DNA from: a virus
Strand: one strand, 5' to 3'
Length of the DNA stretch: 40,780 bases
IMG/VR virus record: IMGVR_UViG_3300036770_001870
Coordinates: 1 to 40,780 of that record
Shown here: piece by piece, positions 1,164 through 25,407 of the stretch
Position numbering within the stretch: the first letter of the stretch is position 1
How the letters are laid out: every line of letters begins with the position of its first letter
Notes under the pieces: generated by a model
The model's input: the letters and a program-made list of their open reading frames with translations, nothing else
Told to the model about the DNA's origin: nothing
Databases searched by the model: none
Translations under genes and position numbers: made by a program

Positions 1164-1460
1164 TTAGCCGAGAATGTCGGCGAACTCGTCGGACTCCGTG
1201 TTTTCATTGCGTGCCAGGCGCGCGGCCTTTTGTTTCGCCCTATGCCTTGCGACTCTTGCTGCTGCTGCGGCTCGTCTGGATTCCAGCTTGTCAGGATCGA
1301 TGTTAACCGCAGCGCGCTTAATCTTGTCGCATTCAATGCAAAGGCCGTTTGCCGTGTATCGGATCGACGAGCCGCAGACTGCGCAAGGCTTGCCGCATAC
1401 ATACGTTTTCCGGCCTGCTGCTAGTGCATCGCGACGCGCGTTTTTATTCTCTGCTGTCAT
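1164..1460 (-). CDS. Small zinc-ribbon protein ending in DEFADILG
   Basis: A 98-residue protein whose start overlaps the end of the upstream gene by 17 bases, with an AAGGA site. Residues about 17-50 hold two CxxC pairs (CAVC and CIEC) in a GRKTYVCGKPC...RYTANGLCIEC arrangement, a treble-clef or zinc-ribbon pattern common in small phage proteins and at the N-terminus of some phage endonucleases. A basic Ala/Arg-rich helix follows (ESRRAAAAARVARHRAKQKA). The C-terminus is DEFADILG, a motif shared with several other proteins in this window. It is a paralogue of its upstream neighbour. Nucleic-acid binding is likely; a specific function is not evident. Confidence 0.65.
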   Translation of the reverse strand: MTAENKNARRDALAAGRKTYVCGKPCAVCGSSIRYTANGLCIECDKIKRAAVNIDPDKLESRRAAAAARVARHRAKQKAARLARNENTESDEFADILG

Positions 1461-1761
1461 GGTCTTTTATCCTTTCCAGTAATGCCACAATGGCGAATTC
1501 AAGGAATGTTTTGTTATCTGCGGCCTGTTGTGCCATGGCTCGGCAACGCCTTGCGGCTTGCCTTTCCTTTGCGGCCTTGCGCTCTGCCTGAGCTAGTGTC
1601 GCGATCTCGGCAACGTCCAGCGCTCTTTGCTTGCGGCATGCGTAACAGGCTTTAGTTGACGTGTAACGCTTACGAAAGCCGCAAGCGTGGCAAGGCGCGC
1701 CAATGTAAAAGAGGCGGCCTTTTGCCTTGGCTTCCGATCTGGATCGACTGCGTTCTGTCAT
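1444..1761 (-). CDS. Small zinc-ribbon protein, paralogue of the next gene
   Basis: A 105-residue protein from ATG 1761. The zinc site has the spacing CHAC...CYAC within GRLFYIGAPCHACGFRKRY, matching the neighbouring 98-residue protein (GRK-Y-GKPC-C-RYT-C--C), so the two arose by tandem duplication and then diverged. The second half is a basic Ala/Gln/Arg-rich helix (ERKAAKERQAARRCRAMAQQ) followed by a hydrophobic segment (FLEFAIVALLERI). No DFxDILG tail is present here, unlike its paralogue. Two iteron-like motifs and a TTGACA box lie immediately upstream, so it is probably the first gene of its transcript. Role: probably DNA or RNA binding; not further identified. Confidence 0.6.
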   Translation of the reverse strand: MTERSRSRSEAKAKGRLFYIGAPCHACGFRKRYTSTKACYACRKQRALDVAEIATLAQAERKAAKERQAARRCRAMAQQAADNKTFLEFAIVALLERIKDHDSRE

Positions 1762-1766
1762 AAGTC

Positions 1767-1810
1767 AAAGCGTTACACATCTAAGCGTTTCATGTCAACA
1801 AACAGGTGAT
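1767..1810 (-). promoter_or_regulatory. Probable leftward promoter/operator cluster
   Basis: TTGACA (1793-1798 on the minus strand) lies inside the operator-like site GTCAAC-AAACA-GGTGAT (1794-1810). Two iteron-like copies, AAAGCGTTACA (1767-1777) and TAAGCGTTTCA (1782-1792), lie 15 bp apart directly downstream of it. The expected -10 (TAACGC, 17 bp away) is poor and falls eight bases before ATG 1761, so a transcript from it would be nearly leaderless. The architecture copies the promoter at 1118-1158. Confidence 0.4.
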
Positions 1811-1938
1811 AACCGGGTAACGGCTCGGCCTGACATCTAAGTGTGACAGTGTGGCAATCGTTTCGCATGCGTAATGGAGTCACGTAAGCCGTCGCGTTAG
1901 ACCTGGCTAATATAAGCTCAGATAGGATGTTAACTATA

Positions 1939-2044
1939 TAAGCGTTACATTATCTAAGCGTTACAATATATAAGCGTTACAGTATCTAAGCGTTACAATA
2001 TATAAGCGTTACAGTATCTAAGCGTAACATAATTAAGCGTTACA
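1939..2044. repeat. Iteron array: seven copies of TAAGCGTTACA at 16-bp spacing
   Basis: Copies start at 1939, 1955, 1971, 1987, 2003, 2019 and 2034; the sixth reads TAAGCGTAACA. The first six are exactly 16 bp apart. The 5-bp spacers alternate between ATATA and GTATC, giving a 32-bp super-period (about three helical turns). The region is AT-rich compared with the rest of the window. Single extra copies lie at 1122, 1767, 1782, 2192 and 3346 (one mismatch in some), and an inverted copy at 1662. Candidate replication origin (iterons), operator array or terminase-binding site. Confidence 0.85.
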
Positions 2045-2068
2045 TATAGGGCAATCAATGGCTTACGG

Positions 2069-2180
2069 TTATGCTCAGGCCGAGCATAAGGGCGACCGCT
2101 CGGGGTCCCTCCTGGCTTCCGGCGGCTGGGCGGGGGCGCTGAGACCCCGGCCTGCGAGAGTTTTGGAAAAATTTTTGGTT
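2069..2180. other. GC-rich symmetric block plus A/T tract; candidate cos or origin element
   Basis: This non-coding stretch has an 8-bp stem TTATGCTC/GAGCATAA with a 5-nt loop (2069-2089). It is followed by inverted CGGGGTC (2101-2107) and GACCCCG (2143-2149) around a very GC-rich centre (GGGCGGGGGCGCT), then a run of T and A (2160-2180). A GC-rich two-fold symmetric core followed by T/A tracts recalls lambda cosN-cosB. This is a resemblance from memory only; an origin or a transcription signal is also possible. Confidence 0.3.
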
Positions 2181-2246
2181 AACGCCCGGATTAAGCGTTA
2201 CAGGTTAACAGAATTCCCCGCTTGTTTACTGTAATCCTTAGATCTT

Positions 2247-2348
2247 CCCTGTTCCACCTGTTCCTTTTTCATCCTTCTCTGTTCCAGTAAATAATAATAG
2301 AAACAATGGGTTAGCTGGTTAGGAACAGGAGGAACAGGTGGAACAGGG
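2247..2348. repeat. 18-bp perfect inverted repeat built from CCTGTTCC units
   Basis: CCCTGTTCCACCTGTTCC at 2247-2264 is matched by its exact complement at 2331-2348, with a 66-bp AT-rich loop that contains further CTGTTCC/GGAACAG units (about 2277 and 2321). More CCTGTTC copies lie at about 2469 and 2478. The repeat unit is separate from the iterons 200 bp away. Candidate binding site of the primase-helicase or a replication initiator, or a large regulatory hairpin. No gene is convincing in the surrounding 2050-2627. Confidence 0.75.
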
Positions 2349-2571
2349 TATCTCTATACGCGAGGTGAAAATTCCCCACCCACAATGGAAATCGCCGGGC
2401 CGTAACACTTAGTGTAGTTTTGGCCGTTTTACCCCTTGCCAATCTTAGGGATGAAAAAAGCGTGTTTCACCTGTTCTGCCTGTTCCACCGCTCGGAAGTC
2501 TTTGAATCTAAACGGTGATTTTTGTCACAGGTGCGTCACAGGTAAGGGTTACTGGCACACGGATTTTCAAC

Positions 2572-2603: not shown

Positions 2604-2627
2604 GCAGAGTTCGGATTTTTGAGGCTG

Positions 2628-5314: not shown

Positions 5315-7771
5315 TCAGACGTCAAAATCGTCGAAGTCGTCGAGATCAACATCCTCGTCTTCCGGCAGATCGATGCGCTCATCCCATTCGACCTTGGAAC
5401 CAAGATACGCCTCGAATTTCTCGCGGCAGACTTGAAGCGGTGGAATGATGTAAACTCGCGCCCGCCTATTGTTGTCTACGCGGATCTGCTGACTCTGAAG
5501 TTGATCGCCTAGCATTTCGGCGAGCCGCTTGCCTACAATCGCCATACCGAGCGCTGTACCTTCGAATTTACGCTGGTTGAGCCACTGCTCATATTTTGCC
5601 GAGAATTCCTTTCGATCTACGCGAATATGCTTAGTAGCCCAACTTCCAGCTTTACCGTCGGCAGGCTGGTGATCAACAGTCATTTCAGCACCATCCAGCA
5701 TGTCAAACCAGAACTTTTCGATGTTCTTGAGACCTTGAAGCTTCTGAGCCGAGATAGCCATTGTATCCGGGTAATCGCGGACTTCGTAATTCGACAGATC
5801 GTAGTTCATGAGATAGTGCAGCAGCGCGGAACGGCCCCCGTTATCCATCTCTTCGCGAAGCTTGGCGAAATAAGCTCTATCGCCTTTGCGATGCGCCGAG
5901 ACGTCGAGCACGAAGTATCGGCCTTCGTCTGCGGTCGCCGGCACTACCCATTCTTCGTTCGACGAGATGAACAGACGCAGATACGAGTCGACATGGAATG
6001 CGTTCAACCCCTTCGGCTCGATCAGCACCTTCTCGGATGTGATGAGGTGCTTCAGCGAACCTTCAGCTTGCTTGCTGCCGGCCCAAAAGCCTTCTTCGAC
6101 GTGAAGGATCAGGCACTTCTCCTGGTGCGAGTTGAACTTGCCGGTTAGCTGATCCTGGTTCGCGATCTTGACGTGATGGTCTTCGCAGAGACCGCCGAAG
6201 TAATCCATGATCGTATCTTTACCGATACGCTTCTTGCCTCGCAGAACGACTGCGACACCAGGCTTATCCCACGGCTTTTGAACCATGTGAGCAAACCATC
6301 CGAGCAGATACTCGTAGTGCTCTTCGACACCGGAACAAATGACTTCCTTCAGGTGTTTAAGCCAAAGCTCGCACGAGCCGTCTTCATCCGGCAGAACACT
6401 CCAACCTTTCCAGTGGTTGAAGTAGCCCTCGCGCGTGAGCCCCGGTGCGAAGATGATGTCGTTCGGATACTCGCGACGTTTCTTGTGGCGCATCCACGCC
6501 TTCGTCACGGGCTCGGTGGCCTTCTCGGTCGCGACGCGATCGTTCTCGTACCAGGCGTGCAGTTCCGACGGCGTGCCGTAACTGGTCGAACCGTCAACGT
6601 TCTCGGTGATGATGACGGTCTTGCCTTTGACGAATGCGACCGCGTGTTTGCGGTTGAGGCGCTTCACCTTGGGCGGGACGTGGCCGAGTTCGGCTTCGAC
6701 TTCAGCCTTCTTCAGCTTCCTCGCGCGCTTGGTGTCGCTCGGGCCGAGGATGTCGTCGAAATCCTCATCGTCGATATCGCTGTCACCGGACGACGATGGC
6801 TCAATGTCTTCGACGTCGTCGAGGTCGTCCAGGTCTTCGAGAAGCCGGGCTTCCCGTGCTGCCGTCATGAGCGTTGCCATGCGCAGCGGCTTGCGGTTGC
6901 TGGTCTTGCCGAACGACTTCCAGACGCGCTTCTGGTCACCCTTGTCGAACTTCTCCGATTCCTTCGAGAAGTCATACCAAAGTTTAAAGCCCTGATCCGA
7001 ACCGCCGGTTTCGTGGTGGACGGCGAAGCCGACCGACAGCCAGCCGTCGCGGTCATCGCGCCAGTAGTCCTTCGGCAGATCGGCCAGCGTGTCGCGGATC
7101 TCGTCGAGGCTCAGACCGAGCGGCGCCTGACGCTCATCGTCTTCCGAATCGTCGTCGTCCTGCTCACGGTCACCGGTCAGTTCTTCAAGGTGTTCCGAAT
7201 CGACAACCGGGCCGACGCCGAGATCCACCTCGTCGAAATCGAAGGGAATCAGCCAGCGATAAGGCTTGCCGGTGTTCGGGTGGATTGACGGCGGCAAAAC
7301 GACCTGTTTGCCAGTGCCGAAAAGCTCAATCTCCCAATCCCACTTCTTGACTTCCTTGTCGCGCTCTTTGTCGTAGACCTTAGCGAACTCACTGGCATGC
7401 GCCAGCTTCTTCGAGTGGAACGGCTTGTCGGCCAGGATGTAGAAGTGCCGGCTGGCGCCGCCGGAACCGGAGATGACGCTCGGATAGACCTTGTAGTCGG
7501 GGAACATCTCTTCGAGCTTTTCCATCGCCTCTTCGGCGAACTCGTCAGCGCGGATGTCCACGTCGATGATGTGCAGATAAAGCCCGGAAACCTGAGACCA
7601 GCGGCCGAGACGGACGCCGACGTTGTTCCCCTGCCTGTAGGTGCTTTTCAGCCGATCGACGGTCGCGACCGGGCGCGTAGACCAGTCGTCACCGATCGGG
7701 CGCTTGCTCTTCGGATGTAGCCAATGGATAGCGAAACCGCCGCGGGCCAGCCGCTCAACTTCATTGAGCAT
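5315..7771 (-). CDS. Bifunctional primase-polymerase / superfamily 3-type helicase
   Basis: An 818-residue replication protein. ATG 7771 has GGAG six bases upstream and is preferred to ATG 7789. The N-terminal third is a prim-pol domain: IIDVDIRADEF supplies the DxD metal ligands, GSGGASRHFYIL the nucleotide-binding His motif, and KWDWEIELFGTGKQVVLPPS the following conserved strand. After an acidic linker comes a PriCT-like helical part (KDYWRDDRDGWLSVGFAVHHE...). The C-terminal half is a DUF5906/VirE-like helicase with Walker A GKKRIGKDTI near residue 512 and FISSNEEWVVP as sensor-like motif. The protein contains DFDDILGP near residue 336 and ends in LDDFDDFDV. It probably primes and unwinds at the phage origin. 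It is transcribed opposite to the polymerase operon. Confidence 0.85.
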   Translation of the reverse strand: MLNEVERLARGGFAIHWLHPKSKRPIGDDWSTRPVATVDRLKSTYRQGNNVGVRLGRWSQVSGLYLHIIDVDIRADEFAEEAMEKLEEMFPDYKVYPSVISGSGGASRHFYILADKPFHSKKLAHASEFAKVYDKERDKEVKKWDWEIELFGTGKQVVLPPSIHPNTGKPYRWLIPFDFDEVDLGVGPVVDSEHLEELTGDREQDDDDSEDDERQAPLGLSLDEIRDTLADLPKDYWRDDRDGWLSVGFAVHHETGGSDQGFKLWYDFSKESEKFDKGDQKRVWKSFGKTSNRKPLRMATLMTAAREARLLEDLDDLDDVEDIEPSSSGDSDIDDEDFDDILGPSDTKRARKLKKAEVEAELGHVPPKVKRLNRKHAVAFVKGKTVIITENVDGSTSYGTPSELHAWYENDRVATEKATEPVTKAWMRHKKRREYPNDIIFAPGLTREGYFNHWKGWSVLPDEDGSCELWLKHLKEVICSGVEEHYEYLLGWFAHMVQKPWDKPGVAVVLRGKKRIGKDTIMDYFGGLCEDHHVKIANQDQLTGKFNSHQEKCLILHVEEGFWAGSKQAEGSLKHLITSEKVLIEPKGLNAFHVDSYLRLFISSNEEWVVPATADEGRYFVLDVSAHRKGDRAYFAKLREEMDNGGRSALLHYLMNYDLSNYEVRDYPDTMAISAQKLQGLKNIEKFWFDMLDGAEMTVDHQPADGKAGSWATKHIRVDRKEFSAKYEQWLNQRKFEGTALGMAIVGKRLAEMLGDQLQSQQIRVDNNRRARVYIIPPLQVCREKFEAYLGSKVEWDERIDLPEDEDVDLDDFDDFDV

Positions 7772-7857
7772 GACGGGCTCCAACTGCATCTTCGTTTGCC
7801 AGACAACCCCTGGCGCGGACGCCGCATGAACGGCTCGCTGATAGAATATTCATGACC

Positions 7858-8376: not shown

Positions 8377-8874
8377 ATGTCCCTCGAAGTAGAAATCGCG
8401 AAGCTGACCGCTGCCGTCGAAGCCAACTCCACCCTTCTCGAAAAGCTCGTTGCCCGTGCTGTCGAAGCCGGCGCCGTCGCCGCTCCGGCCGCTGCCGACA
8501 AGGCTGAGACCAAGAAGCGCACGTCCAAGAAGGACGACAAGGCTGAAGAGAAGACCGAAGAGACCGGCACCACCGAGGCTTCCGGCCCGTCGCATGACGA
8601 AGTCAAGTCGCTCGTTTCCGCCTGGCTCGGCGAGTTCAAGGGTGTCGAAGGCGACGGCGAAACCGAAGCCCGTAAGGCCGCCATCCGCGCAGCCCTCGCT
8701 TCGCTCACCAAGAAGGAAGGCGCTCAGATCGCCGACGTGCCGGCCGATCAGCTTCACCGCGTTGTCGCCTGGCTCGACAAGAAGAAGTCCGCGGATGCCG
8801 GCTTCGGCGTGGGCCGCCTGACCGAGCAGCCCGGCGCCAAGAAGGAAGAAGCTCCGGCTGACGACGACATCTGA
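8377..8874 (+). CDS. Hypothetical early protein with coiled coil, basic linker and acidic tail
   Basis: A 165-residue protein from ATG 8377 with GAAAGG upstream. Residues 1-35 form a predicted coiled coil (LEVEIAKLTAAVEANSTLLEKLVARAV). Residues 36-75 are Ala/Lys/Glu-rich and unstructured. Residues 80-145 form a small helical domain (HDEVKSLVSAWLGEFKGV...ARKAAIRAALASL...LHRVVAWLDKK). The C-terminus is PADDDI, similar to the acidic end of the DUF2815 protein downstream. First gene of the rightward replication operon, so an accessory to replication or recombination is likely. No catalytic motif. Confidence 0.7.
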   Translation: MSLEVEIAKLTAAVEANSTLLEKLVARAVEAGAVAAPAAADKAETKKRTSKKDDKAEEKTEETGTTEASGPSHDEVKSLVSAWLGEFKGVEGDGETEARKAAIRAALASLTKKEGAQIADVPADQLHRVVAWLDKKKSADAGFGVGRLTEQPGAKKEEAPADDDI

Positions 8875-9017: not shown

Positions 9018-9254
9018 ATGTTAGAAGAAGATCTCGAACGACAAGCAGCACTGATCGCATCTCGATGCGAAGGTAAAGTCGTCTTTGAGACCTTCAACCA
9101 GGCAAAGCGCGTTGCCGATCGGCCGCGAAAGAAAAACCCGATCGTCCTGCTACCCTATAAATGCCCCGACTGCGGCAAGTTCCATCTGGCGCCGCCAAAG
9201 CCCAAGAAAAAGCTGAAGAATGGCTCACGCAAGAAACGCACCTTCCGACAGTAA
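9018..9254 (+). CDS. Small zinc-ribbon protein, 78 aa
   Basis: ATG 9018 is chosen because the earlier in-frame GTG (8967) would place the long inverted repeat inside the coding region; the ribosome site at 9018 is poor. The protein has an acidic helical N-terminus (MLEEDLERQAALIASRCEG), one CPDC pair in YKCPDCGKFHLAPPK, and a very basic tail (KPKKKLKNGSRKKRTFRQ). It resembles the small zinc proteins of the leftward operon. It overlaps the next gene by 35 bases. Probable nucleic-acid-binding accessory. Confidence 0.6.
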   Translation: MLEEDLERQAALIASRCEGKVVFETFNQAKRVADRPRKKNPIVLLPYKCPDCGKFHLAPPKPKKKLKNGSRKKRTFRQ

Positions 9255-10440
9255 GCGCTGGCTTCTATGCCCCGGTGCGCTGAACAGGTGCAAGACGCTC
9301 GGGCTGAAGGACGACGGCGGCAACACGGCATCCCGAGAAGGGACCGCGGCGCATTGGGTGCGTGAGACGTGCCTGGAACTCGGGCTCGATCCATACGATT
9401 TCATCGGCACCCGGATCGCGGTCGAAGGTGAGACGTTCGTCTGCGACGACGGAATGGCGAGCGCACTCCAAGACGGCATCGATCAGATCCGCCGCTATGA
9501 CGGGCCGCTCTACATCGAGTTTCGCGTCAACATCACACCCTGGACGGGGCTTGATGAGGATGGCAACGAGCAGTTCGGCACCCTCGACGCAGGCGTCGTC
9601 GGCAAAGATCTGATTGTCATCTCTGACCTGAAATACGGCGCCAACCTCCCGGTCGAAGCGATCCGCAACTTCCAGCAGGTCATCTACGCGCTCGGTTTCT
9701 ACGAGCAGGTGGCGAAGCACCTCACCAAAGCGACGAAATTCCTGATCATCATCGACCAGCCGCGCAACTCGGCCGGCGGTGGCGAATGGGAAGTCTCGCT
9801 CGAAGAACTGCAAAAGCTTGGCGAGTGGATCAAGGAACGCGCGAAGCTGACCTTTGATCCGAACGCACCCTGCGTCGCCAGCAAGGAAGCCTGCACCTGG
9901 TGCCCGGCAGCGAAGAAGCTCGGTCAGTGCGCAGAATACGACCAGTGGCAGACTGAGCTATTCGAGGCGGATCTCGACGACCTTGACGACTTCATCGAAT
10001 TCGGCGCCGAACTGAAGCTGCCCGATCCGGAAGTGCTGACCCCTGAGCGACTCGGCGTGATCTATCAGCATCGCTCGATCATGAAGAAGTTCATCGAGCG
10101 CGTCGAAGCACTCGTTAAGCGTGATGTGCTGCAAGGTCGCGGTGACGATTACGGCCTGAAGCCTGTCGCCGGCAAGCGCAGCCCGAGGAAGCACCGTGAC
10201 GGCTTTGAGTCCGAGATGTGGCTGTTCGAAAACGGCTACACTGATGCACAAATTATCAATAGACAGTTGAAAACCCCATCGCAGCTTGATAAGGTCTGCG
10301 GCAGGGGTAAGTTCCCACAAGATCTGATTACCGGAGGCGAGCCAACACCGTTGATCGTTTCGGTAGATGATGCGCGACTGGCGCTACCAGTCGAAAACTT
10401 CATTGACGAGGAAGTCGAAGATCTCGACGACTTCGAATGA
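9220..10440 (+). CDS. DUF2800 protein, Cas4/RecB-like nuclease
   Basis: A 406-residue protein. GTLDAGVVG (about residue 120) and DLKYG (about 136) give the D...DxK motif of PD-(D/E)XK nucleases; the downstream cysteine set CVASKEACTWCPAAKKLGQC (about 218-237) fits the iron-sulfur cluster of Cas4/AddB-like nucleases. This is the DUF2800 family, usually found beside DUF2815 and a polymerase in phage replication modules. Likely role: processing DNA ends during replication or recombination. It carries DLDDLDDF near residue 250 and ends in VEDLDDFE, an acidic motif shared with neighbours. An operator-like site lies inside its 3' end (10255-10271). Confidence 0.85.
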   Translation: MAHARNAPSDSKRWLLCPGALNRCKTLGLKDDGGNTASREGTAAHWVRETCLELGLDPYDFIGTRIAVEGETFVCDDGMASALQDGIDQIRRYDGPLYIEFRVNITPWTGLDEDGNEQFGTLDAGVVGKDLIVISDLKYGANLPVEAIRNFQQVIYALGFYEQVAKHLTKATKFLIIIDQPRNSAGGGEWEVSLEELQKLGEWIKERAKLTFDPNAPCVASKEACTWCPAAKKLGQCAEYDQWQTELFEADLDDLDDFIEFGAELKLPDPEVLTPERLGVIYQHRSIMKKFIERVEALVKRDVLQGRGDDYGLKPVAGKRSPRKHRDGFESEMWLFENGYTDAQIINRQLKTPSQLDKVCGRGKFPQDLITGGEPTPLIVSVDDARLALPVENFIDEEVEDLDDFE

Positions 10441-10512: not shown

Positions 10513-11271
10513 GTGGCTGATAAAGATAAAGATCCGCGTACCGTAAAGCTCAAAGGTGTGCGCCTGTCGTTCACCGATGCGCTTACGGAGAAGAAGGCAA
10601 CTTCTTCCGAAAACCCGGATCGCAAGACCCACCACCTGAACGTCATTATTGAAACCACCGGCCCGATGGCGAAGTACGCCGAAGCCAACAAGGCCGCAGT
10701 CGTTGGAGCACTGAAGGCTGCCGGTGAGGCCAAGTGGAAGAATGCGATGGCGTACAAGGACATCCAAGAGGATGCCCCGAAGCGCGTCTGCTTCCGCAAG
10801 GGTGACCGGTTCAAGAACCAGGAAGGCCAGATCTACGCTGGCTACGAAGGCAACTACGCCTTTTCCTGCACCGGCCCCGGTGGCGGTCAGCGGCGCCCGC
10901 GCCTGATCGACCGCTACAAGCGCCTGGTTCTGCCGAAGGGTGAGACGCCGCCTGCAAGCACGAAGTTGGAGATCCGCCATATCGAGGTTGGCGAAATCGA
11001 CAACATCTTCTACTCCGGCTGCTACGCCGACGTTACCGTGTCGTTCTACGGCACCGACAAGGGCTCGCGCGGCATCTTCGCCACGATCGAGATGATCCGC
11101 TCGCACCAGCAGGGCGAACGGATGGCCGGCGGCTACAACTTCGACGACTCGGATCTCGACGATCTCGACGATTTCGATGACGGCGATGATGACTTCGATT
11201 CGCCGTCTGAGTCTTCGAAGCCCGCTGCGGGCAAGAAGGCTTCGTCGATCGACGATGACGACGACATCTAA
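10513..11271 (+). CDS. DUF2815 single-stranded DNA-binding protein
   Basis: A 252-residue protein from GTG 10513 with AAGGA upstream. The N-terminal part (VKLKGVRLSFTDALTEKKA...KTHHLNVIIETTGPMAKYAEANKAAV) and GNYAFSCTGPGGGQRRPRLIDRYKR match the DUF2815 family, which takes the place of an SSB in phage replication modules. The C-terminal 50 residues are acidic: DLDDLDDFDDGDDDFDSP, then a Lys/Ala stretch and SIDDDDDI at the very end. This resembles the acidic protein-docking tail of bacterial SSB, which recruits replication proteins. It likely coats ssDNA for the downstream polymerase and helicase. Confidence 0.85.
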   Translation: MADKDKDPRTVKLKGVRLSFTDALTEKKATSSENPDRKTHHLNVIIETTGPMAKYAEANKAAVVGALKAAGEAKWKNAMAYKDIQEDAPKRVCFRKGDRFKNQEGQIYAGYEGNYAFSCTGPGGGQRRPRLIDRYKRLVLPKGETPPASTKLEIRHIEVGEIDNIFYSGCYADVTVSFYGTDKGSRGIFATIEMIRSHQQGERMAGGYNFDDSDLDDLDDFDDGDDDFDSPSESSKPAAGKKASSIDDDDDI

Positions 11272-11326: not shown

Positions 11327-13330
11327 ATGGCGACAATTATCCTCGACTGCGAGGTCTACTGGAACTTCTTCTATCTCGGCATGAAGCGGGTGGAAGACGG
11401 CCGACGCATCGGCTTCGAGTTCAGCGACCGCACCGATTTTGACCGGGATCACGTTCGCACCATCATGCGGCGCAACCGCACGGTGGGCTTCTTTTCGAAC
11501 AGCTACGACCTGGCGATGATCTACGCCGCACTGAGCGGCAAATCGACCGAAGAGATCAAGCGCGACAGCGACAGGATCATCCTTGGCGACATTCCCCGAT
11601 GGAAGATCGAAGACAAGCTCGGCATCTACGTGCCGGATGTCGATCACATCGACCTGTTCGACACCAATCCGTCAGTTGGACGGAGTCTGAAGTTTATCAA
11701 CGGCTCCATGCACCACAAGCGGCTGCAAGAACTGCCGTATGACCCGTCGTACCGTCTAACCGACGATGAGAAAGACCGCACGATTGAATACTGCCAGTTT
11801 GGCGACATCGACGGCACCGAGCTTCTATTCCACACCCTGAAAGAGCCGATCGAGCTTCGCGAAGCGATGGGCAAGGTCTACGGCGGAATGGATCTCCGCT
11901 CGAAGTCTGACGCGCAGATGGGTGAGGCAATCGCGAAGCAACAGGTCGAATTTACGACCGGCCGGCGCATCAAGAAGAACGATCCGGACACCGGAGTCAG
12001 CTTCCGCTACAAGGTTCCGGAGTGGATGCGCTTCAAGACGCCGTACATGCAGTACGTGCTTGAGCAGATCGCGCAGACCGACTTCTGGATCAAGCATAAC
12101 GGCAAGGTCGAATTCCCTGAGTCCTTCAAGGACTTCAACATCGAATTCGACGGCATGGAATACACCCTCGGGATCGGCGGTCTGCATTCGACAGAGAAGA
12201 ACCGAGCCGTCTTTTCCGATGACGAATACGTGCTGATCGACGCCGACGTGGCGAGTCAGTACCCGTCGATCATCATGAAGCTCGGGCTCTATCCGCCGGC
12301 ACTCGGGCCGCATTTCCAGACTGTCTACAAGGCGCTTATCGACACGCGACTGGCTGCGAAAAAGGCGAAGGACAAGGCGACCGACAAGGGTCTGAAGATT
12401 GCGATCAACGGCATCTACGGAAAGCTCGGCTCGATCTATTCCGCGCTGTTCGCGCCGCACCTGCTCGTTTCGACGACACTGACCGGCCAGCTATCGCTTC
12501 TCATGCTGATCGAGGCCGCGAGCCTGGAAGGCATTCCGGTTGTCTCGGGCAACACCGACGGCGTGCTCTTCCGCTGCCCGCGCTCGAAGTGGGATGGCTT
12601 CGTCGAGCACGATGGCAAGCCGACCGATCGCCTGAAGCCGTCGCCGATCCAAGACATCATCGAATGGTGGGAATCGGTCACATCCTTCAAGCTCGAATTC
12701 GCCGAGTACAAGGCGATCTACAACGAGTCCGTCAACACCTACGTCGCGCTGAAGGCCGACGGCGGCTTCAAGCGTAAGGGTGACCTGGCGAACCACTGGC
12801 GCGAGATCACACCTTGGGGTGCGAAGAACACCGACTATGACCCTTCGCGCGAGGGGTTGAAGAAGAGCCCGCAGTTCACGATCTGCGCCGACGCAGTGCT
12901 CGGCTATCTGCTGCACGGTATCCCTGTCGAGCGCACGATCTATTCCTGCCGCGACGCTCGCGAGTTCCTGCGCGTCACGCAGGTTCAAGGCGGCGCCACC
13001 TGGCACGGCGACTATCTCGGCAAGGTGGTCCGGTTCTATTGGTCGAAGGACATCACCGCGGCGCCGATCCTGCGAAAGATCCCGAACGCTCACGGTACGC
13101 ACGGCCAGGTTCAGAAGAGCGATGGTTGCCGGCCACTCATGAATCTGCCTGACGACTTCGAGGTGCCGGTTGATGTCGATTACGACAGGTACGTCGCCGA
13201 AGCCTATCAGATCTTGGAAGACATCGGTGCCGGGCAATTTGTGAAGGCAAAGCCCTTGCTTGAACACTTCGTTGGTAGTATCTGTGAAATCAACATTCCG
13301 TTGAAAAAGAAACGAAAGAGGGCGGCGTGA
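11327..13330 (+). CDS. Family-B-like phage DNA polymerase
   Basis: A 667-residue protein. The exonuclease part has ILDCEVYWN (Exo I, D-x-E), FFSNSYDLAMI (Exo II) and YCQFGDIDG (Exo III-like). The polymerase motifs are A: DADVASQYPSII near residue 305; B: KIAINGIYGKLGS near 357; C: SGNTDG with Asp411. The family-B signature of motif C is YxDTDS; here the first Asp is Asn409, while the second, catalytic Asp is kept. VNTYVALKADGGFKRKG resembles the KxY motif. The C-terminus is basic ([10 protein letters not shown]). It sits in a module (DUF2800, DUF2815, VRR-NUC, SNF2) that in many phages carries a family-A polymerase instead. Its stop overlaps the methyltransferase GTG. Confidence 0.85.
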   Translation: MATIILDCEVYWNFFYLGMKRVEDGRRIGFEFSDRTDFDRDHVRTIMRRNRTVGFFSNSYDLAMIYAALSGKSTEEIKRDSDRIILGDIPRWKIEDKLGIYVPDVDHIDLFDTNPSVGRSLKFINGSMHHKRLQELPYDPSYRLTDDEKDRTIEYCQFGDIDGTELLFHTLKEPIELREAMGKVYGGMDLRSKSDAQMGEAIAKQQVEFTTGRRIKKNDPDTGVSFRYKVPEWMRFKTPYMQYVLEQIAQTDFWIKHNGKVEFPESFKDFNIEFDGMEYTLGIGGLHSTEKNRAVFSDDEYVLIDADVASQYPSIIMKLGLYPPALGPHFQTVYKALIDTRLAAKKAKDKATDKGLKIAINGIYGKLGSIYSALFAPHLLVSTTLTGQLSLLMLIEAASLEGIPVVSGNTDGVLFRCPRSKWDGFVEHDGKPTDRLKPSPIQDIIEWWESVTSFKLEFAEYKAIYNESVNTYVALKADGGFKRKGDLANHWREITPWGAKNTDYDPSREGLKKSPQFTICADAVLGYLLHGIPVERTIYSCRDAREFLRVTQVQGGATWHGDYLGKVVRFYWSKDITAAPILRKIPNAHGTHGQVQKSDGCRPLMNLPDDFEVPVDVDYDRYVAEAYQILEDIGAGQFVKAKPLLEHFVGSICEINIPLKKKRKRAA

Positions 13331-14847
13331 AACCTTGGGCGCTGTATAACGAGATTGACGAACATGCTGCTGACTGGCTCGAAAACCTTATCCGAATGGG
13401 TCTCATCGCACCCGGTGTCGTCGATCGAAGAAGCATCGAAGACATTCGAGCAGATGACCTGCGAGGATTTCGACAGGTGCATTTCTTCGCTGGCATTGGT
13501 GTTTGGAGTTACGCCCTCCGTCGCGCGGGCTTCACGGATGACGTTGCTCTTTGGACGGGAAGCTGCCCCTGCCAACCTTTCTCCGCGGCGGGCAAAGGAA
13601 CTGGGGTGGATGACGAGCGGCATCTATGGCCAGCGCTCTACTATCTCATCACAGAGTGCCGCCCTGCTCGCTTCTTTGGAGAGCAGGTTGCGAGCGCGGA
13701 CGGCCTCGGTTGGCTCGACCTTGTATTCGATGACATGGAAGCAGCGCGCTACGCCTTCGGGCCGCTTGATACCTGCTCTGCGGGCAGTGGCGCGCCGCAC
13801 ATCAGGCAAAGGCTCAGACTCGCAGCCTACGATCTTAGATCTGCCGCAGGTGGGCTGGCCGACAGCGAGATCGATAGACGGATCGAAGGGGCAGCGAACC
13901 GAACAGGGTATGTTGAACGAACTGGCGCGGAAGGGGCACCTAGACGAACTGCCGAGCGTGGCGGCTCTGACGGGCTGGACGACAGCATCGGCTCGGGACT
14001 GGAAGGACTCCGGAACGGATATTGCGCCGAGACTGGACAACGGGCGAGATCGCTTCGACCAGTTGCCAAGGCAAGCGGTATTGAGTGGGTGGCCGACGAC
14101 GGACGCGAACATGGGGTCTGGTGGACGAGTGCCAGCGGATCAACTGTCTTTGACGCGGGAGAATGGCGGCAAGGTGCAGTTCACGTTGAACCACGCGGCG
14201 GCGCTGTCGGGCTGGACTACTCCGACGACGAACGACGACAACATCTCCCGCCGTTCCTGCGAAGCGATGGAGCGGGAAATCGCGAGGGAGAATCGGGGCG
14301 CAAACTTAGCCATAGACAGCTTTCTGAGCGGATGGCCGACGACGACGAGTTCGAACAATGGAGCGGGAGAGACGCCGGAGGCGCGCTATGCGAAGGGCTT
14401 CGGCCTGAACCTGGCGGATGCGACGAGTTTGACCGGATGGCCGACGACGGGTGCGGAAGACGCGAAGTGGCGCTACTCGACGACGGAAGCCGCGGAGCGT
14501 CGAGCGGAAAGCGGCAAGCAGGTCAGCCTAGAGTGTGCAGCGCTCTTGACGGGCAAAGAGCCGGCCCGACTAACGGTTTTTGGCGAGATGCTGATTGGCT
14601 CTTTTGCCGGGATGGAAAGTGGCGGCCAGTTGAGCCCGGCACATTCCCGCTGGTTGATGGGGCTGCCTTCCGTTTGGGATCTGGCAGCCCCTTTGAAGGC
14701 AAGTCCCGCCAAGGCATGCTCAAAGGCTACGGTAACGCCATCGACGCGGAAGCCACGATCGACTTCCTCGAAGCGTGCCTCGCGTGGGAGCAAGATCGCG
14801 CCCGAGCAGACGCTTTGGTACGCGATTTTGAAGACATTCTTGGATAA
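13327..14847 (+). CDS. C5-cytosine DNA methyltransferase with internal repeat region
   Basis: A 506-residue protein from GTG 13327, overlapping the polymerase stop. Motif I is [18 protein letters not shown]; motif [18 protein letters not shown] with catalytic Cys82; motif VI FFGEQVA; motif [17 protein letters not shown]; motif [16 protein letters not shown] near the end. [15 protein letters not shown] before it is also typical of phage Dcm-like enzymes. Between motifs VIII and IX, where the target-recognition domain belongs, residues about 175-380 hold six loose repeats beginning (L/M/V)AD or LD ([59 protein letters not shown]). The gene ends in DFEDILG. It likely methylates phage DNA against host restriction. 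The whole repeat region is also open in the +1 frame. Confidence 0.85.
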
Positions 14848-20006: not shown

Positions 20007-20264
20007 TTACTTCACCTGCTCGAATGTCAGCTTGTAGACGCCGCCGATCTCAAACTGGTCAATGGCGCCGGGATTGGTGATCATCATCTTGATCTCGCCG
20101 CTCGGCGTGTACTTCGACCAATCTTTGTTGGCTTCTTCGTCCTTGGACAGACCCTTCAGGTAGCTACCGAAAGCTGCGCCAAGCGTGACTTCGGCCATAT
20201 TTTCAGGGCCGCCGCTTGCGATGTGACGGAGTTCCTTGACGAAGAACATTGCGGTGACAGACAT
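20007..20264 (-). CDS. Conserved small phage protein, 85 aa
   Basis: ATG 20264 has AAGGAA eight bases upstream and is preferred to the longer frame from 20324. The sequence has ELRHIASGGPENMAEVTLGAAFG, then KDWSKYTPSGEIKMMITNPGAIDQFEIGGVYKLTFEQV. The end (TPSGEIKMxITNPxAxxQFExGxxY) is a signature I recall from small conserved proteins of many phages, without known function. It is the only leftward gene between integrase and head genes, with its own terminator and a TTGACA-containing region near 20338, so it may be expressed independently, possibly in the lysogen. Confidence 0.7.
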   Translation of the reverse strand: MSVTAMFFVKELRHIASGGPENMAEVTLGAAFGSYLKGLSKDEEANKDWSKYTPSGEIKMMITNPGAIDQFEIGGVYKLTFEQVK

Positions 20265-20390
20265 GGGGTTTTCCTTCTTGTTGTTTTCTGTTGCGGCGGC
20301 GTGCGCCGATTGGAAGAGTCTCATCTCGGGGCTTGAATGTCAACCAAATAGTGATTACACCTAGAACCGGTTGATATGAGGTGAGACAGC

Positions 20391-20582
20391 ATGAGCGCGG
20401 AAGAGACCCACTTTCTGCGGATCAAGGACGTTTTGAAGCGCGTGCCTGTTAGCAGGCCGACAATCTATCGATTGATCGAGAAGGATGAGTTTCCCAAGCC
20501 GGTGAAGCTCGGCTGCGTTTCGATGTGGCCTGAGAAAGAGATCGACGACTGGATGAAGAGCAAGGTGCAGGACCGTGGTTGA
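20391..20582 (+). CDS. alpA: AlpA-family HTH regulator/excisionase-like protein
   Basis: A 63-residue protein with a GAGGTGAG ribosome site. FLRIKDVLKRVPVSRPTIYRLIEKDEFPKPVKLG...MWPEKEIDDWM is the complete AlpA/MerR-like winged HTH signature. Members act as transcriptional activators of integrase or as excisionases. Here it lies downstream of the integrase but heads the head-gene operon and overlaps the small terminase gene by eight bases, so it could also couple excision to late expression. Binding at the TGACGGTATC repeats is possible but untested. Confidence 0.85.
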   Translation: MSAEETHFLRIKDVLKRVPVSRPTIYRLIEKDEFPKPVKLGCVSMWPEKEIDDWMKSKVQDRG

Positions 20583-21237
20583 TTCGGATTTTGATGACAT
20601 CCTCGGGCCGTCAGAAGAGCAGCAGTCGGAGCAAGACTTCTTTGATCCGCTGATTCGGCGCAAGCCAGGCCGGCCTTCGCGCAAAGAGATCGAAGAACGC
20701 GAGCAGCTTCTCGCCGACATCTCGAATGTCGATAACGGTGCGCCGATCCTTTGGTTCGTGAAGCACTTCAAGATGAGTCGCGCGACCGTCAACGAGAAGC
20801 TGAAGAACTGCCCGATCCATCGGCGCCATCCGACTAAAGGTCACCCATACTACGATATCAAGACTGCCGCAGCTTATCTCGTCGAGCAGCAGTACGATCC
20901 CGAGCAATTCCTGAAGAAAATCAAAGCTGGCGATCTGCCGCTGAAGCTACAGGAAAGCTTCTGGAACGCGAAGATCAAGGAAATGAAGTTCAAGGTTCTA
21001 GCCGGCGAGCTTTGGCCGACGCAGAATGTGATGGACGTTCTGTCGGACACCTTTCAGCTTATCTCCGGCAAGACGAAGCTTTGGGTGGACGACCTAGAAG
21101 AAGTCACGCAGATCAATGACGAGCAGCGAAAACACCTCATGACGCTGGTTGACGATCTGATCACCGAGATCCGCAAAGCACTGATCGAGCGAGCAGACTC
21201 GCAGGTGACCGAAAGCTATTTGTCGGAGATGGATTGA
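20575..21237 (+). CDS. terS: Terminase small subunit (DUF1441/gp1-like)
   Basis: A 220-residue protein from GTG 20575. The N-terminus is DSDFDDILGPSEEQQ, the motif shared with four other proteins, followed by an AT-hook-like RKPGRPSRKEI. An HTH-like part follows (PILWFVKHFKMSRATVNEKLKN). The centre and C-terminus (KLQESFWNAKIKEMKFKVLAGELWPTQNVMDVLSDTFQLI...) are helical and match small terminase proteins paired with GpA-type large subunits, whose helix binds the large subunit. It should recognise the packaging site. It lies two bases before the large subunit gene. Confidence 0.75.
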   Translation: MVDSDFDDILGPSEEQQSEQDFFDPLIRRKPGRPSRKEIEEREQLLADISNVDNGAPILWFVKHFKMSRATVNEKLKNCPIHRRHPTKGHPYYDIKTAAAYLVEQQYDPEQFLKKIKAGDLPLKLQESFWNAKIKEMKFKVLAGELWPTQNVMDVLSDTFQLISGKTKLWVDDLEEVTQINDEQRKHLMTLVDDLITEIRKALIERADSQVTESYLSEMD

Positions 21238-21238: not shown

Positions 21239-23347
21239 GTGACGTTTTCTTACAAGAAGCCGGAGTTCGAGTCACTCGAAAGGATGGTTGCGTCCATCTC
21301 GGATATGCTGCAACCGCCCGAGCGGCTAACCGTAAGTCAGGCTGCGGCTGAATATCGAAACATCAATAACCCGCCGGCTTATGTCGGCAAGTGGTCAAAC
21401 GAGAAGACACCCTATCTCGTCGAGATCATGGACACGATGACGAGCCTTGAATATCAGGGCATCATCTTCGTCGGGCCGGCGCGCGTCGGCAAATCCGACC
21501 TGTTCTACAACTGGCTGCTGCACTCGGTTCTCTGCGATCCCGGCGACATGATCTTCTATGCCATGACGCGCGAAGTCGCTCGCGACATCTCGCAGGGCGA
21601 TCTCGGCAAGGTGATGCGCCACACCGAAAAGCTCGGTGAGATGTTGGTCAAGGGCCGCAACAGCGACAACACCTTCGACAAGCGATTCCGCAACGGCATG
21701 CGCCTGCTCATGCGCTGGCCGACGATCACCGAGCTTTCCGGTAAAACGCTTCCGCGCGTCTGGTTCGCTGACTATGACCGAGTCGAGGATGCCGACGACA
21801 TCGCCAAGGAAGGGCCGATGTTCGATCTCGGGATGAAGCGCACCACCACCTACAAGCGCTTCGGCATGACCGTGGCCGAAAGCTCACCTGGCCGTACCGT
21901 CGAGAACCCGAAGTTCGTCCTGTCGTCACCGCATGAGGCACCGCCGGCAAAGGGTATCCTCGGGCTCTACAATCGCGGTGACCGGCGCCGTCGGTACTGG
22001 CGCTGCCTGCACTGCCGCACGCCGTTCGAACCGAGCTTCAAGCTGTTCTGCTACCCGGAGTCGTCCGACTTCATGGAAGCGGCTGAGATGGTCACGCTGC
22101 GCTGCCCGCATTGCGGCTACGACCATACGCCTGACATGAAGCGGGATCTCGACAACAATGACAACGCCCGATGGATCAGGGACTTCATGACCTGGCACCA
22201 GGACGGCTCGCTCACCGGCAAGCCGCCGCGGACCAACATCGCTTCGTTCTGGCTCAAAGGCCCGGCCGCTGCGTTCCAGACGTGGCCGTCACTGGTCTTC
22301 AACTTCCTTCAGGCCAAGGCTGCCTTCGACGCGACCGGCGATGAAGGGCCGCTGAAGAAGACGATCACCACCGACCAAGGCGAGCCCTACATCCCGAAGG
22401 CGCTTGAGTCCGGTCGATCGCCGGAAACCCTCATGGAGAACGCGCGCAATTGGGGCTCGACCAAGGAAGAGCCGACCGTTCCCGACCACGTCCGCTTCCT
22501 GATCGCGTCGGTTGACGTGCAGAGTGGCGCGCGCAGCGGCTTCGTGGTTCAGGTCACCGGCTTCGGCCCAGGCGGCGACGCGGCAGTGATCGACATGTTC
22601 CGCATCCGCAAGTCCAACCGCCTCGACGAAGACGGCGAGCGGATCATCGCCGCACCGGAAGCCTATCTCGAAGATTGGGATCTCATTCGAAGCGAGGTGA
22701 TGGAGAAATCCTATCTGCTCGCCGACGGCTCGGGCCGGCGCATGGCCGTCAAACTCACCGTCTGCGACTATGGCGGCACGGATGGTGTGTCGGTTCAAGC
22801 GCGCGAGTTCTGGCGCAAGCTGCATCGCGAGAACGAGTCGCATCGCTTCACGCTCGTTAAGGGTGAACCGTCGAAGAATGCGCCTTATGTTCAGGTGAAA
22901 TACCCTGACGCAAACCAGAAGGACAAATACAACGCAGCCCGCGGCGACGTGCCGGTGGCCTTCATCAATTCGCTCGAAGGCAAAGACATGCTGGCTGGTC
23001 TACTCGGCCGTACTGATCCGGGCGGCGGCATGTGGACATTCCCGCATTGGGCGCCGACGTGGTTCTACACGCAGATGACCAATGAGATTCGCACCGAGAA
23101 GGGATGGGAGCAACCGAAGAACCACCGCAACCGAAACGAAGCGTGGGACTTGTCCTACTACGCGCTTGCGGCTTTGCGTCTTCCGACTATTCGCGCCCAT
23201 CGTGACGGCTTCTGGAATGCGCCGCCGCCGTGGGCTGCTGAATGGTCAGAGAACATTCTGATCTTCGGCGAAACCTCGAAAGAACCGGAGATCCGGAAGA
23301 AGGACGTCGGCTTTGATCTTGAGGCATTGGGCAAGCTGCTGGCCTGA
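21239..23347 (+). CDS. terL: Terminase large subunit, lambda GpA family
   Basis: A 702-residue protein from GTG 21239. The ATPase has Walker A GPARVGKSD near residue 82 and Walker B RVWFADYDRVED. A zinc-like cluster follows (CLHCRTPF...CPHCGYDH), as in GpA relatives. The nuclease domain starts with IASVDVQSG and continues with CDYGGTDG and WDLSYYALAALRL, which supply the acidic metal ligands. GpA-family motors usually cut at cos sites, so packaging is probably cos-type. An operator-like site begins three bases after the stop. Confidence 0.92.
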   Translation: MTFSYKKPEFESLERMVASISDMLQPPERLTVSQAAAEYRNINNPPAYVGKWSNEKTPYLVEIMDTMTSLEYQGIIFVGPARVGKSDLFYNWLLHSVLCDPGDMIFYAMTREVARDISQGDLGKVMRHTEKLGEMLVKGRNSDNTFDKRFRNGMRLLMRWPTITELSGKTLPRVWFADYDRVEDADDIAKEGPMFDLGMKRTTTYKRFGMTVAESSPGRTVENPKFVLSSPHEAPPAKGILGLYNRGDRRRRYWRCLHCRTPFEPSFKLFCYPESSDFMEAAEMVTLRCPHCGYDHTPDMKRDLDNNDNARWIRDFMTWHQDGSLTGKPPRTNIASFWLKGPAAAFQTWPSLVFNFLQAKAAFDATGDEGPLKKTITTDQGEPYIPKALESGRSPETLMENARNWGSTKEEPTVPDHVRFLIASVDVQSGARSGFVVQVTGFGPGGDAAVIDMFRIRKSNRLDEDGERIIAAPEAYLEDWDLIRSEVMEKSYLLADGSGRRMAVKLTVCDYGGTDGVSVQAREFWRKLHRENESHRFTLVKGEPSKNAPYVQVKYPDANQKDKYNAARGDVPVAFINSLEGKDMLAGLLGRTDPGGGMWTFPHWAPTWFYTQMTNEIRTEKGWEQPKNHRNRNEAWDLSYYALAALRLPTIRAHRDGFWNAPPPWAAEWSENILIFGETSKEPEIRKKDVGFDLEALGKLLA

Positions 23348-23349
23348 TT

Positions 23350-23407
23350 TTCAACAAACGGTTTGCATATCTACATGCTGTAGGCTATACGATAGAAAAT
23401 CCTACAG
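23350..23407 (+). promoter_or_regulatory. Possible internal late promoter with operator and inverted repeat
   Basis: TTGCAT (23363-23368), 17 bp, TATACG (23386-23391) is a modest promoter. Its -35 overlaps the operator-like TTCAAC-AAACG-GTTTGC (23350-23366). CTGTAGG (23378-23384) and CCTACAG (23401-23407) form a 7-bp inverted repeat around the -10 and likely start point. Confidence 0.4.
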
Positions 23408-23422
23408 GACTTGTGTTGCGCG

Positions 23423-23629
23423 ATGACTCTGGTTGACCGCCTGAAAGAAGCCGAAGACGCCCTGCACGAACTCAACATCGGCCGCAACGTCGTCGAGGTT
23501 CGTGACCAGAACGGCGAAACGATTCGCTACGGCGTTCCCGACCGAGCACGTCTCAACGCCTACATCGCGGATCTGAAAAACCAGATCGCCGGCAAGTCCG
23601 TCGGCCCGATGTCTTTTTGGGGTCGCTAA
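23423..23629 (+). CDS. gpW-like head-tail joining protein
   Basis: A 68-residue protein; ATG 23423 is preferred over GTG 23411 because the family starts with this helix. TLVDRLKEAEDALHELNIGRNVVEVRDQNGETIRYGVPDRARLNAYIADLKNQIAG is the gpW fold: helix, short hairpin, helix. gpW binds beneath the portal after packaging and prepares the head for tail attachment. Its stop overlaps the portal start (TAATG). The place between terminase and portal is exactly as in lambda. Confidence 0.88.
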   Translation: MTLVDRLKEAEDALHELNIGRNVVEVRDQNGETIRYGVPDRARLNAYIADLKNQIAGKSVGPMSFWGR

Positions 23630-25407
23630 TGGGCGCTATCAACTACAAGGATTTTGCAGATGTGCTCGGGCCGGCACCGGAAGGTTCTGTGCCGAGCACG
23701 CCCGCGCCTGAAGGTTTCAGGGTGCCGGATGGCGCGGGCACAGTTCACGCTATCGCTGGTGACCCCTATGAAGGCGCAAGCCGGCAGTCCCGCGAACTGG
23801 CGATGTGGCGGCCGAGCAACCAGACCGCCGATCGAGACATCATTCCGAACAAGCGCCTGTCGGATGCGCGCGTCCGCGACACGCTGCGCAACGACTCCTT
23901 CGTTCGAAACGGTCAGCTTCTCCACCAGGACAACATCGTCGGTGGCCTGTTCCTCTTGAACTCGAAGCCGGTCACCAAGATCGTGCTCGGCGACGAAGAC
24001 GAAGTTTGGGAGCGCGAGTTCCAGCAGGAAGTCGAAACGCTCTTCACGCTTTGGGCTGAATCGACCGAAGCCTGGCCGGACTCCACGCGCCGCCACACCT
24101 TCAGTTCGCTCGTGCGACTGGCCGTCGGCACCTTCCTTGCGACCGGCGAAGTGCTGGCGCAAGTCGAGTGGTCCCGCGATCAGGGTGACATCCGGCCGAT
24201 GAACACCTCGATCCGCATGATCGACCTGGACCGCCTGTCCACGCCTCAGAACGCGGCCGGCAATCCGTTCGTCATCGGCGGCGTCGAAGTGAACAAGCGC
24301 CACGTCCCGGTGGCCTATCACATCCGCAAGGCTCACCCCGAGTCCTTCTATGTCGGCCAGGCGTTCGATTGGGAGCGCGTCCCGGCGAAGAAGCCGTGGG
24401 GCCGCCCGCAGATGATCCACCTGTACGACCAGTGGCGCCCGAGCCAGACGCGCGGCATTTCCGATCTGACATCCGGTCTCAAAGAGATGCGGATGACGAA
24501 GACGTTCCGCGAGACTGTCTTGCAGAACGCCGTGGTCAACGCGACCTACGCAGCATCGATCGAGTCCGATCTCGACACCGATTCCATCTTCCAGCGTCTC
24601 GGTGGCGGCAATCTCGGCGAAGACGCTGCTGACGAATATCAGAAGATGATCTCGGGCTACATGGGCGGCTACATGGGTGCTGTCGCCAAGTACATGGGCG
24701 CGAGCAACCAGTTCCAGATCGGCGGCGTGAAGATCCCGCACCTTCCGCCGGGCTCGAAGCTGAACCTTCAGCCTGCGGCCAAGGGCGGCCCGCTTGGAAC
24801 GGATCTCGAAAAGTCGCTGCTGCGGCACATCGCGGCCGCGCTCGGCGTGAGCTACGAGCAGCTTTCCAAGGACTACACCGAGACCAACTACTCGTCGGCC
24901 CGCGCAGCAATGACCGAGACCTGGAAGCGCATGGTCGCGCTGAAGTCGCTCATTGCCGACCGCTTCGCCTCGACCATCTTCCGCCTTTGGCTCGAAGAAG
25001 CCATCAACTCAGGCATGATCACGTCGCTGCCCCGCCGCTTGGGCACCGACAGCGCTTGGCTCTATCAGCCCTTCAAGATGGAAGCGATCAGCGCTTGTGA
25101 GTGGATCGGCGCATCCCGCGGCCAGATCGACGAACTGAAGGAAACGCAGGCTGCGGTTCTGCGCATGAAGTACGGCCTTTCGACCGTCGAGCGCGAGTCG
25201 TCGCGCCTCGGTATCGACTGGCGCCAGAACATCAAGCAGATGGCTCGCGAGAAGGAAGCGTTCGAAGACGCAGACTTCCAGCATCCAGCCACCGTCACCG
25301 ACAACACCATGAACGCTTCGACCGGTGAGCCCGGCGATCCGTCGTCCTCGACCGGTAGCGGCAACGCTCAGGTCGATCCGGACTTCGCAGACATCCTCGG
25401 GGAATGA
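23629..25407 (+). CDS. Portal protein, lambda gpB family
   Basis: A 592-residue protein from ATG 23629, overlapping the gpW stop. DARVRDTLRNDSFVRNGQLLHQDNIVGG and the following clip/wing regions are typical of lambda-type portals, as are RGISDLTSGLKEMRMTKTFRETVLQNAVVNATY and SYEQLSKDYTETNYSSARAAMTETWKRM. Twelve copies should form the DNA channel at one head vertex and the terminase docking site. Both ends carry the shared motif: KDFADVLGP near residue 8 and PDFADILGE at the C-terminus. Such tagging of both tails is unusual for a portal. Confidence 0.92.
   Translation: MGAINYKDFADVLGPAPEGSVPSTPAPEGFRVPDGAGTVHAIAGDPYEGASRQSRELAMWRPSNQTADRDIIPNKRLSDARVRDTLRNDSFVRNGQLLHQDNIVGGLFLLNSKPVTKIVLGDEDEVWEREFQQEVETLFTLWAESTEAWPDSTRRHTFSSLVRLAVGTFLATGEVLAQVEWSRDQGDIRPMNTSIRMIDLDRLSTPQNAAGNPFVIGGVEVNKRHVPVAYHIRKAHPESFYVGQAFDWERVPAKKPWGRPQMIHLYDQWRPSQTRGISDLTSGLKEMRMTKTFRETVLQNAVVNATYAASIESDLDTDSIFQRLGGGNLGEDAADEYQKMISGYMGGYMGAVAKYMGASNQFQIGGVKIPHLPPGSKLNLQPAAKGGPLGTDLEKSLLRHIAAALGVSYEQLSKDYTETNYSSARAAMTETWKRMVALKSLIADRFASTIFRLWLEEAINSGMITSLPRRLGTDSAWLYQPFKMEAISACEWIGASRGQIDELKETQAAVLRMKYGLSTVERESSRLGIDWRQNIKQMAREKEAFEDADFQHPATVTDNTMNASTGEPGDPSSSTGSGNAQVDPDFADILGE

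Follow-up and report, generated by a model that had tools for sequence, protein, structure and literature searches.

A short tag in the acidic tails and linkers of unrelated proteins of a Casjensviridae-like phage, and its probable role in docking

The IMG/VR virus record IMGVR_UViG_3300036770_001870, a complete record of 40,780 bases that we refer to in its full length as the window, encodes a lambda-type portal, an S49 protease, a DUF2800 protein, a primase and a single-stranded DNA-binding protein (SSB) of the Enc34 type. Its portal is 63% identical to that of Rhizobium phage RHph_X2_30 and about 52% identical to those of Achromobacter phage AchV4 and Ruegeria phage DSS3-P1; by its gene content and nearest relatives, the phage belongs with the Casjensviridae. 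Our subject is a short motif, DF[ADE]D[IV]LG, six copies of which occur in five unrelated proteins of the window. They are listed here with their open reading frames (ORFs); in this list and below, endings are written up to the last residue before the stop codon.

1167–1187, minus strand: EFADILG, the exact C-terminus of a small Cys-pair (zinc-ribbon-like) protein, ORF 1164–1460
6743–6763, minus strand: DFDDILG, in the acidic linker of the primase (Prim-Pol/PriCT_2/DUF5906), ORF 5315–7789
14824–14844, plus strand: DFEDILG, the exact C-terminus of a C5-cytosine methyltransferase, ORF 13327–14847
20587–20607, plus strand: DFDDILG, at the N-terminus of the small terminase (TerS), ORF 20575–21237
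23650–23670, plus strand: DFADVLG, near the N-terminus of the portal, ORF 23617–25407
25381–25401, plus strand: DFADILG followed by a single E, one residue before the C-terminus of the portal

Three copies thus lie at a C-terminus or one residue from it, two near an N-terminus and one in an interdomain linker. The initial annotation of the window had claimed such a motif in five unrelated proteins, at their tails or in a linker and in differing codons. All of this is borne out: the six copies were found within a few bases of the positions it gave, and domain boundaries and alignments agree with the placement. Both portal copies fall outside the conserved portal core, the TerS copy precedes the conserved region of that protein, the primase copy is found between the PriCT_2 (232–311) and DUF5906 (516–622) domains, and the methyltransferase copy falls within the last 21 residues, past residue 485, where most of the homologues listed stop aligning. 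Since the codons differ among the copies, the motif is not a DNA repeat. The ‘zinc-ribbon’ label of the first protein is based on its Cys pairs and not on a Pfam match; a paralogous Cys-pair protein is encoded beside it (1444–1761, minus strand), and only the first of the two bears the tag.

How often would such a motif be expected in these proteins? The pattern F[ADE]D[IV]LG was found six times in the 42 proteins of the window (12,586 residues). Shuffling of residues gave a mean of 0.0025 copies (maximum 1) and shuffling of 20-residue blocks a mean of 0.015 (maximum 1). When the six residue classes of the motif were placed in their 719 other orders, the commonest of these was seen twice.

A portal-only search of viral and genome contigs returned no close relatives, and an alignment query was needed to find them; a search for the DNA pattern encoding DF[ADE]DILG with a TRA stop, TAG stops being left out, returned a single unrelated jumbo-phage contig. 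Four IMG/VR phages, G001–G004, were read whole, the ORFs of IMG/VR records being called crudely. The initial annotation had asked whether relatives conserve the motif, and they do keep it, in modified form. RHph_X2_30 has 11 F.D[IV]LG tags, and its TerS starts DFDDIFG besides. Its tags are carried by a small Cys-pair protein, three small proteins beside a methyltransferase, the methyltransferase itself (twice), another small protein, the primase linker, a queuine-transglycosylase (DpdA-like) protein and both ends of the portal. G001–G004 have the same architecture. Tagged Cys-pair homologues are found in RHph_X2_30 (L001:1246–1527, ending FDDVLG) and G001 (50144–50449, ending FADLLG); the primase linker tag is also present in RHph_X2_30, G002 and G004, and the C-terminal portal copy in RHph_X2_30 (DFSDILGG) and G002 (DFSDILGS). 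Most of the relatives examined have a version of the N-terminal TerS motif, and the portal copies are absent from several.

Other carriers differ from phage to phage. Tagged methyltransferases are of the C5 (G001), N6/N4 (G001, G002 and G003) and MT-A70 (G004) types, and the tag is also found on an Rv2179c-like exonuclease (G003), tyrosine integrases (G003 and G004) and an excisionase-type protein (G004). Prophages in Bradyrhizobium, Gemmobacter, Mesorhizobium and Sphingomonas bear it on an integrase, an excisionase-like AlpA, TerS or a methyltransferase. At least ten protein families are tagged, and within one spelling of the tag the carriers span several unrelated methyltransferase families, primase, integrase, excisionase, TerS, portal, a DpdA-like enzyme, nucleases and small proteins. 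One N6/N4 methyltransferase of G002 (L100:329–1954) carries a LAGLIDADG endonuclease domain as an insertion and is tagged twice at its C-terminus.

The spelling of the tag varies between phages and is largely consistent inside one. We call these spellings dialects:

FxD[IV]LG: the window, RHph_X2_30 and G002
FxxLLG: G001 and, mostly, G003
VxxLLG: G004 and Bradyrhizobium G017
[IV][DE]DLLG: Ruegeria phage DSS3-P1
WxD[LM]LG on integrase and AlpA, FxDLLG on methyltransferase: Sphingomonas prophage G024
LIG: G005, G011 and G046
EMLG: L063
LMG/LM: G015
LDxL at the C-terminus: Sphingomonas phage Carli

To measure this agreement, 73 tags from 16 phages were gathered by pattern and then compared, with label shuffles. 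Within-phage identity was 0.58 versus 0.39 at position 1 (p=0.005), 0.73 versus 0.37 at position 4 (p=0.0002) and 0.99 versus 0.77 at position 5 (p=0.0002). No within-phage agreement was seen at position 2 (0.20 versus 0.22, p=0.60). The result holds after RHph_X2_30, G001 and G002 are dropped. As a background, no gene with the LG pattern at its end was present in a crude set from ten dissimilar relatives (G005–G014).

Do homologues outside these phages carry the tag, and do their hosts? The C5 methyltransferase, MT-A70 methyltransferase and DpdA-like homologues in eight outside phages (BcepC6B, EBPR podovirus 2, EBPR siphovirus 2, RC1, RcBaka, Pam5, RHph_N3_2 and Mae-JY30) end without it; judged from these sequences, the tag is an add-on. 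The initial annotation had also proposed comparing the frequency of the motif with that in host proteins. In 12 alphaproteobacterial genomes containing related prophages, host genes hardly ever carry the tag: F[ADE]D[ILVM]LG precedes a true stop in three cases, two of them inside prophage spans and the third in a beta-eliminating lyase, the only chromosomal gene outside prophages to end in it. Two more matches carry TGG in place of the stop. Internal copies with a preceding acidic residue are rare and mostly in frames that are not gene-like, one being in the C-terminal region of NrdR of a Bradyrhizobium.

The tag is not the only acidic tail of the window. Four replication proteins end as follows:

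11245–11268, plus strand: SIDDDDDI, acidic C-terminal tail of the Enc34/T7-type SSB, ORF 10513–11271; DDLLG in G004, G017 and DSS3-P1
8857–8871, plus strand: ADDDI, acidic C-terminal tail of a replication-module protein, ORF 8377–8874; covaries with the SSB tail
10420–10437, plus strand: DLDDFE, acidic C-terminal tail of the DUF2800 exonuclease-like protein, ORF 9220–10440; VDDLLG in DSS3-P1, SDLLG in G004
5318–5338, minus strand: DFDDFDV, acidic C-terminal tail of the primase; DDLLG in G004

The SSB matches PF10991 and phrog_112, and the modelled SSB of G004 has as its best Foldseek fold match 5odj, the Enc34 SSB, with 1je5 also matched. All four proteins have acidic C-terminal tails in most of the phages examined, and the tip of the SSB tail is I, G, L, V or A in most. 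In several dialects, the SSB tail and the tag are identical. Thus, in G004 the SSB ends GDDLLG, the exonuclease SDLLG and the primase DDDLLG; in G017 both SSB and exonuclease end DLLG; and in DSS3-P1 the SSB ends DDDLLG and the exonuclease VDDLLG, while the primase, an unrelated protein of the VapE type, ends IEDLLG and has two internal IDDLLG copies. Intermediate forms occur in G005, where LIG stands with GLI, and in G015, where LMG stands with DLM/GLM. Among representatives, the SSB tail covaries between phages with that of the 8377–8874 protein (identity within phages 0.72, between 0.22, p=0.0002), with that of the primase (p=0.0002) and with that of the exonuclease (p=0.004). The DDLLG ending of the SSB in G004, G017 and DSS3-P1 places the tag with the acidic C-terminal tails of SSB, primase and exonuclease. 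The 8377–8874 protein, whose tail follows that of the SSB more closely than does the tail of any other protein, has a helical, coiled-coil-like N-terminus and no Pfam, PHROG or NCBIfam match; its predicted model is helical, of low confidence (mean predicted local distance difference test score, pLDDT, 68), with a disordered linker and tail.

What might the tag do? As far as sequence can tell, it has the features of a short linear motif, being found in disordered segments of unrelated proteins, with few fixed residues and with turnover between homologues. From its presence, placement and enrichment, its covariation within phages, its absence from outside homologues and its identity with the SSB tail in several dialects, we infer a docking function. 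It is probably a lineage-specific docking tag, of the type of the T7 SSB tail, carried by proteins that act on DNA and read by one receptor that is itself probably phage-encoded. The initial annotation had suggested a docking motif for one shared partner, either a host factor or a phage hub protein. The docking motif is well supported by the many unrelated carriers, their tails and the dialects; the partner is the conjectural part, with a phage-encoded receptor probable and a host protein disfavoured.

We propose that the tag has the form Phi-x-[DE]-Phi-[LIM]-G, would be displayed in acidic disordered ends or linkers of proteins acting on phage DNA, and would belong to the same class as the acidic C-terminal tail of the phage's own T7/Enc34-type SSB. 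The shared receptor would sit on replicating or packaging phage DNA and recognise the hydrophobic residues at positions 1, 4 and 5 and the acidic residue at position 3, so that enzymes of replication, modification, recombination and packaging would be gathered there. Each lineage would have its own dialect because tag and receptor drift together, and new enzymes such as methyltransferases would gain the local tag as a tail extension. More tentatively, such tags may serve as genome-wide address labels in Casjensviridae-like phages, the lineage dialect directing many unrelated proteins that act on DNA to a single receptor encoded by the phage. Replication, modification, site-specific recombination and packaging might then be united on phage DNA in a single complex or compartment, shielded from host proteins and from phages of other dialects, which acquired enzymes could join by gaining the local tag.

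Four observations weigh against this proposal. In the window, RHph_X2_30, G001 and G002 the SSB tail, which is DDDDI-like, differs from the FxDILG tag, so that two related docking codes may exist. In the AlphaFold monomer of the DDLLG-tailed SSB of G004, the tail has a pLDDT of about 50 and does not dock on its own protein. Co-divergence with the TerS tag (partial Mantel test) is weak and singles out no receptor, the partial r being 0.16–0.27 for the helicase and 0.14–0.17 for the SSB. Finally, the p-values for covariation are label-shuffle values that leave shared ancestry in, and the tags were collected by pattern.

Might the likeness between tag and SSB tail be coincidental, the FxDILG tags and the DDDDI-type tails of SSB, primase and exonuclease being two systems with different receptors? 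This is possible, if rather doubtful. In the window, RHph_X2_30, G001 and G002 the tail types differ and stand on different proteins or at different sites of the primase. On the other hand, tag and tail coincide as DLLG in G004, G017 and DSS3-P1, and G005 and G015 have intermediate forms. A host receptor, with the phage mimicking a host docking code, is unlikely. The sliding clamp DnaN, a binder of the host SSB tail or an adaptor of the ClpX type could be imagined in this role: the clamp motif of DnaE, QADMF (then G), and the host SSB tail DDDIPF loosely resemble the tag, and the T4 clamp is a hub for polymerase and late factors. In addition, a gp2.5-like SSB in the Paracoccus metagenome-assembled genome G023 (L268:1450–2085) ends DEDEIPF, the bacterial SSB tip, suggestive of mimicry of the host SSB tail; it was set aside, lying on a different contig from the Casjens-like portal of that genome. 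However, the Gln of the bacterial clamp motif occurs at position 1 in none of the 73 tags, and the N-terminal and internal copies exclude a rule that demands a free C-terminus. A host partner is further disfavoured because host proteins do not use the motif and phages of the same host genus differ in their tags, Sphingomonas phage Carli having LDxL and G024 WxDxLG.

That a host protease recognises the motif as a degron, or that the S49 prohead protease cuts at it, as the initial annotation had raised, is very improbable. Several copies do stand at the extreme C-terminus, as degrons do, and the portal copies flank a virion protein whose gene adjoins that of the S49 protease. But recognition restricted to the C-terminus does not accommodate the N-terminal copies of TerS and portal or the linker copy of the primase, and degradation of core replication and packaging proteins seems unlikely. 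Cleavage by the S49 protease is at odds with carriers that are mostly non-virion proteins and with the lack of portal copies in several relatives. As for acidic, Leu- and Gly-rich tails yielding the motif by composition, without selection, the tails are indeed acidic and disordered; we nonetheless give this explanation almost no credence, for it is contradicted by the composition and block shuffles, the order-permuted patterns, the host background and the positional agreement within phages.

If docking to a phage-encoded receptor is preferred, which protein could it be? The candidates, unranked by direct evidence, are the beta-sheet groove of the SSB, the SNF2 helicase, the DNA polymerase and a phage GapR homologue. 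The SSB, like the DUF2800 protein, was found in nearly all phages in which those loci were covered. Crystals of the Enc34 SSB show the beta-sheet groove of one molecule occupied by the acidic tail of the next (PMC5686142). The SNF2 helicase is never tagged; as sole receptor it is weakened by the lack of a helicase match in the records of the tagged phages G024 and G035. Tagged phages do not all have the same type of polymerase: that of the window lineage is family-B-like, whereas DSS3-P1 and Carli have a family A enzyme, and a single conserved polymerase receptor is less likely for this reason. The GapR homologue (PF10073) occurs in 14 of the phages read (L001:17229–17513, and L095, L099, L103 and L106 in G001–G004). 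In RHph_X2_30 and G001–G004 it heads an operon of tagged small proteins and a methyltransferase and is itself untagged; it was undetected in AchV4, G008 and G010.

How does the tag compare with known systems? In phage T7, the SSB gp2.5 ends DGDF and the primase-helicase gp4 ends DTDF; of 13 T7 proteins inspected, these two alone have the DF ending, the other 11 lacking it. The gp2.5 tail has been linked to the binding of polymerase and primase-helicase (PMC5686142), and the helicase tail touches basic patches on the polymerase (PMC5997990). As in T7, an SSB of the T7 type and a primase share an acidic tail tip here, DLLG in G004 and DSS3-P1 standing for the DF of T7. Unlike in T7, the tagged families include methyltransferases, integrase, TerS and portal, the tip is of the LG, DI or LV type with no terminal Phe, internal copies and dialects occur, and the polymerase is of either family. 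The Enc34 SSB (ORF6, DUF2815/PF10991) is the SSB of this phage group and has the groove-packing acidic tail; the available text on it does not describe a sharing of that tail with other phage proteins (PMC5686142).

Two bacterial and phage systems offer looser parallels. The bacterial SSB tip, DDDIPF, is an acidic C-terminal tail with a hydrophobic end that docks many proteins of DNA metabolism. There the SSB is the sole bearer and its partners are the receptors, whereas here many partners bear the tail, N-terminal and internal copies exist, and no tail of this phage group has an IPF tip. In the sliding-clamp hubs (beta clamp motif QL[SD]LF; T4 gp45 tail motifs), unrelated enzymes dock through short tail motifs on a single hub that sits on DNA. 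Position 1 of the tag is F, V, I, L or W, not Gln, and no phage clamp gene was recognised in this analysis. In the literature searched, which covers subscription papers sparsely, we found no description of the motif or of the sharing of tails in this phage group. If the proposal is correct, the tag would be a sequence code for the proteins of the phage-DNA machinery, many of them of unknown function, and would reveal how horizontally acquired enzymes are wired into it. The sharing of a tail by two T7 proteins would then have a wider counterpart, a hub of many proteins that links replication with DNA modification and packaging. The tag would also offer a handle for annotation, an unknown phage protein that ends in the local dialect being predicted to act on phage DNA.

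Three further features of the window deserve mention. The DNA polymerase (11327–13330) has the family-B-like motifs DVASQYPS, NGIYGKLG and GNTDG and a phrog match, with no Pfam match; set beside the family A enzymes of DSS3-P1 and Carli, it points to polymerase replacement within one phage group. Between the integrase and AlpA, on the opposite strand, lies an orphan gene for a protein of 105 residues (20007–20324, minus strand), which has neither a Pfam match nor a homologue in seven relatives. The large terminase TerL (21239–23347) and the TerL proteins of relatives have a common C-terminal ending, [DE][FLI]xxL[AG]xxLA, which is likely to be a portal-binding tail.

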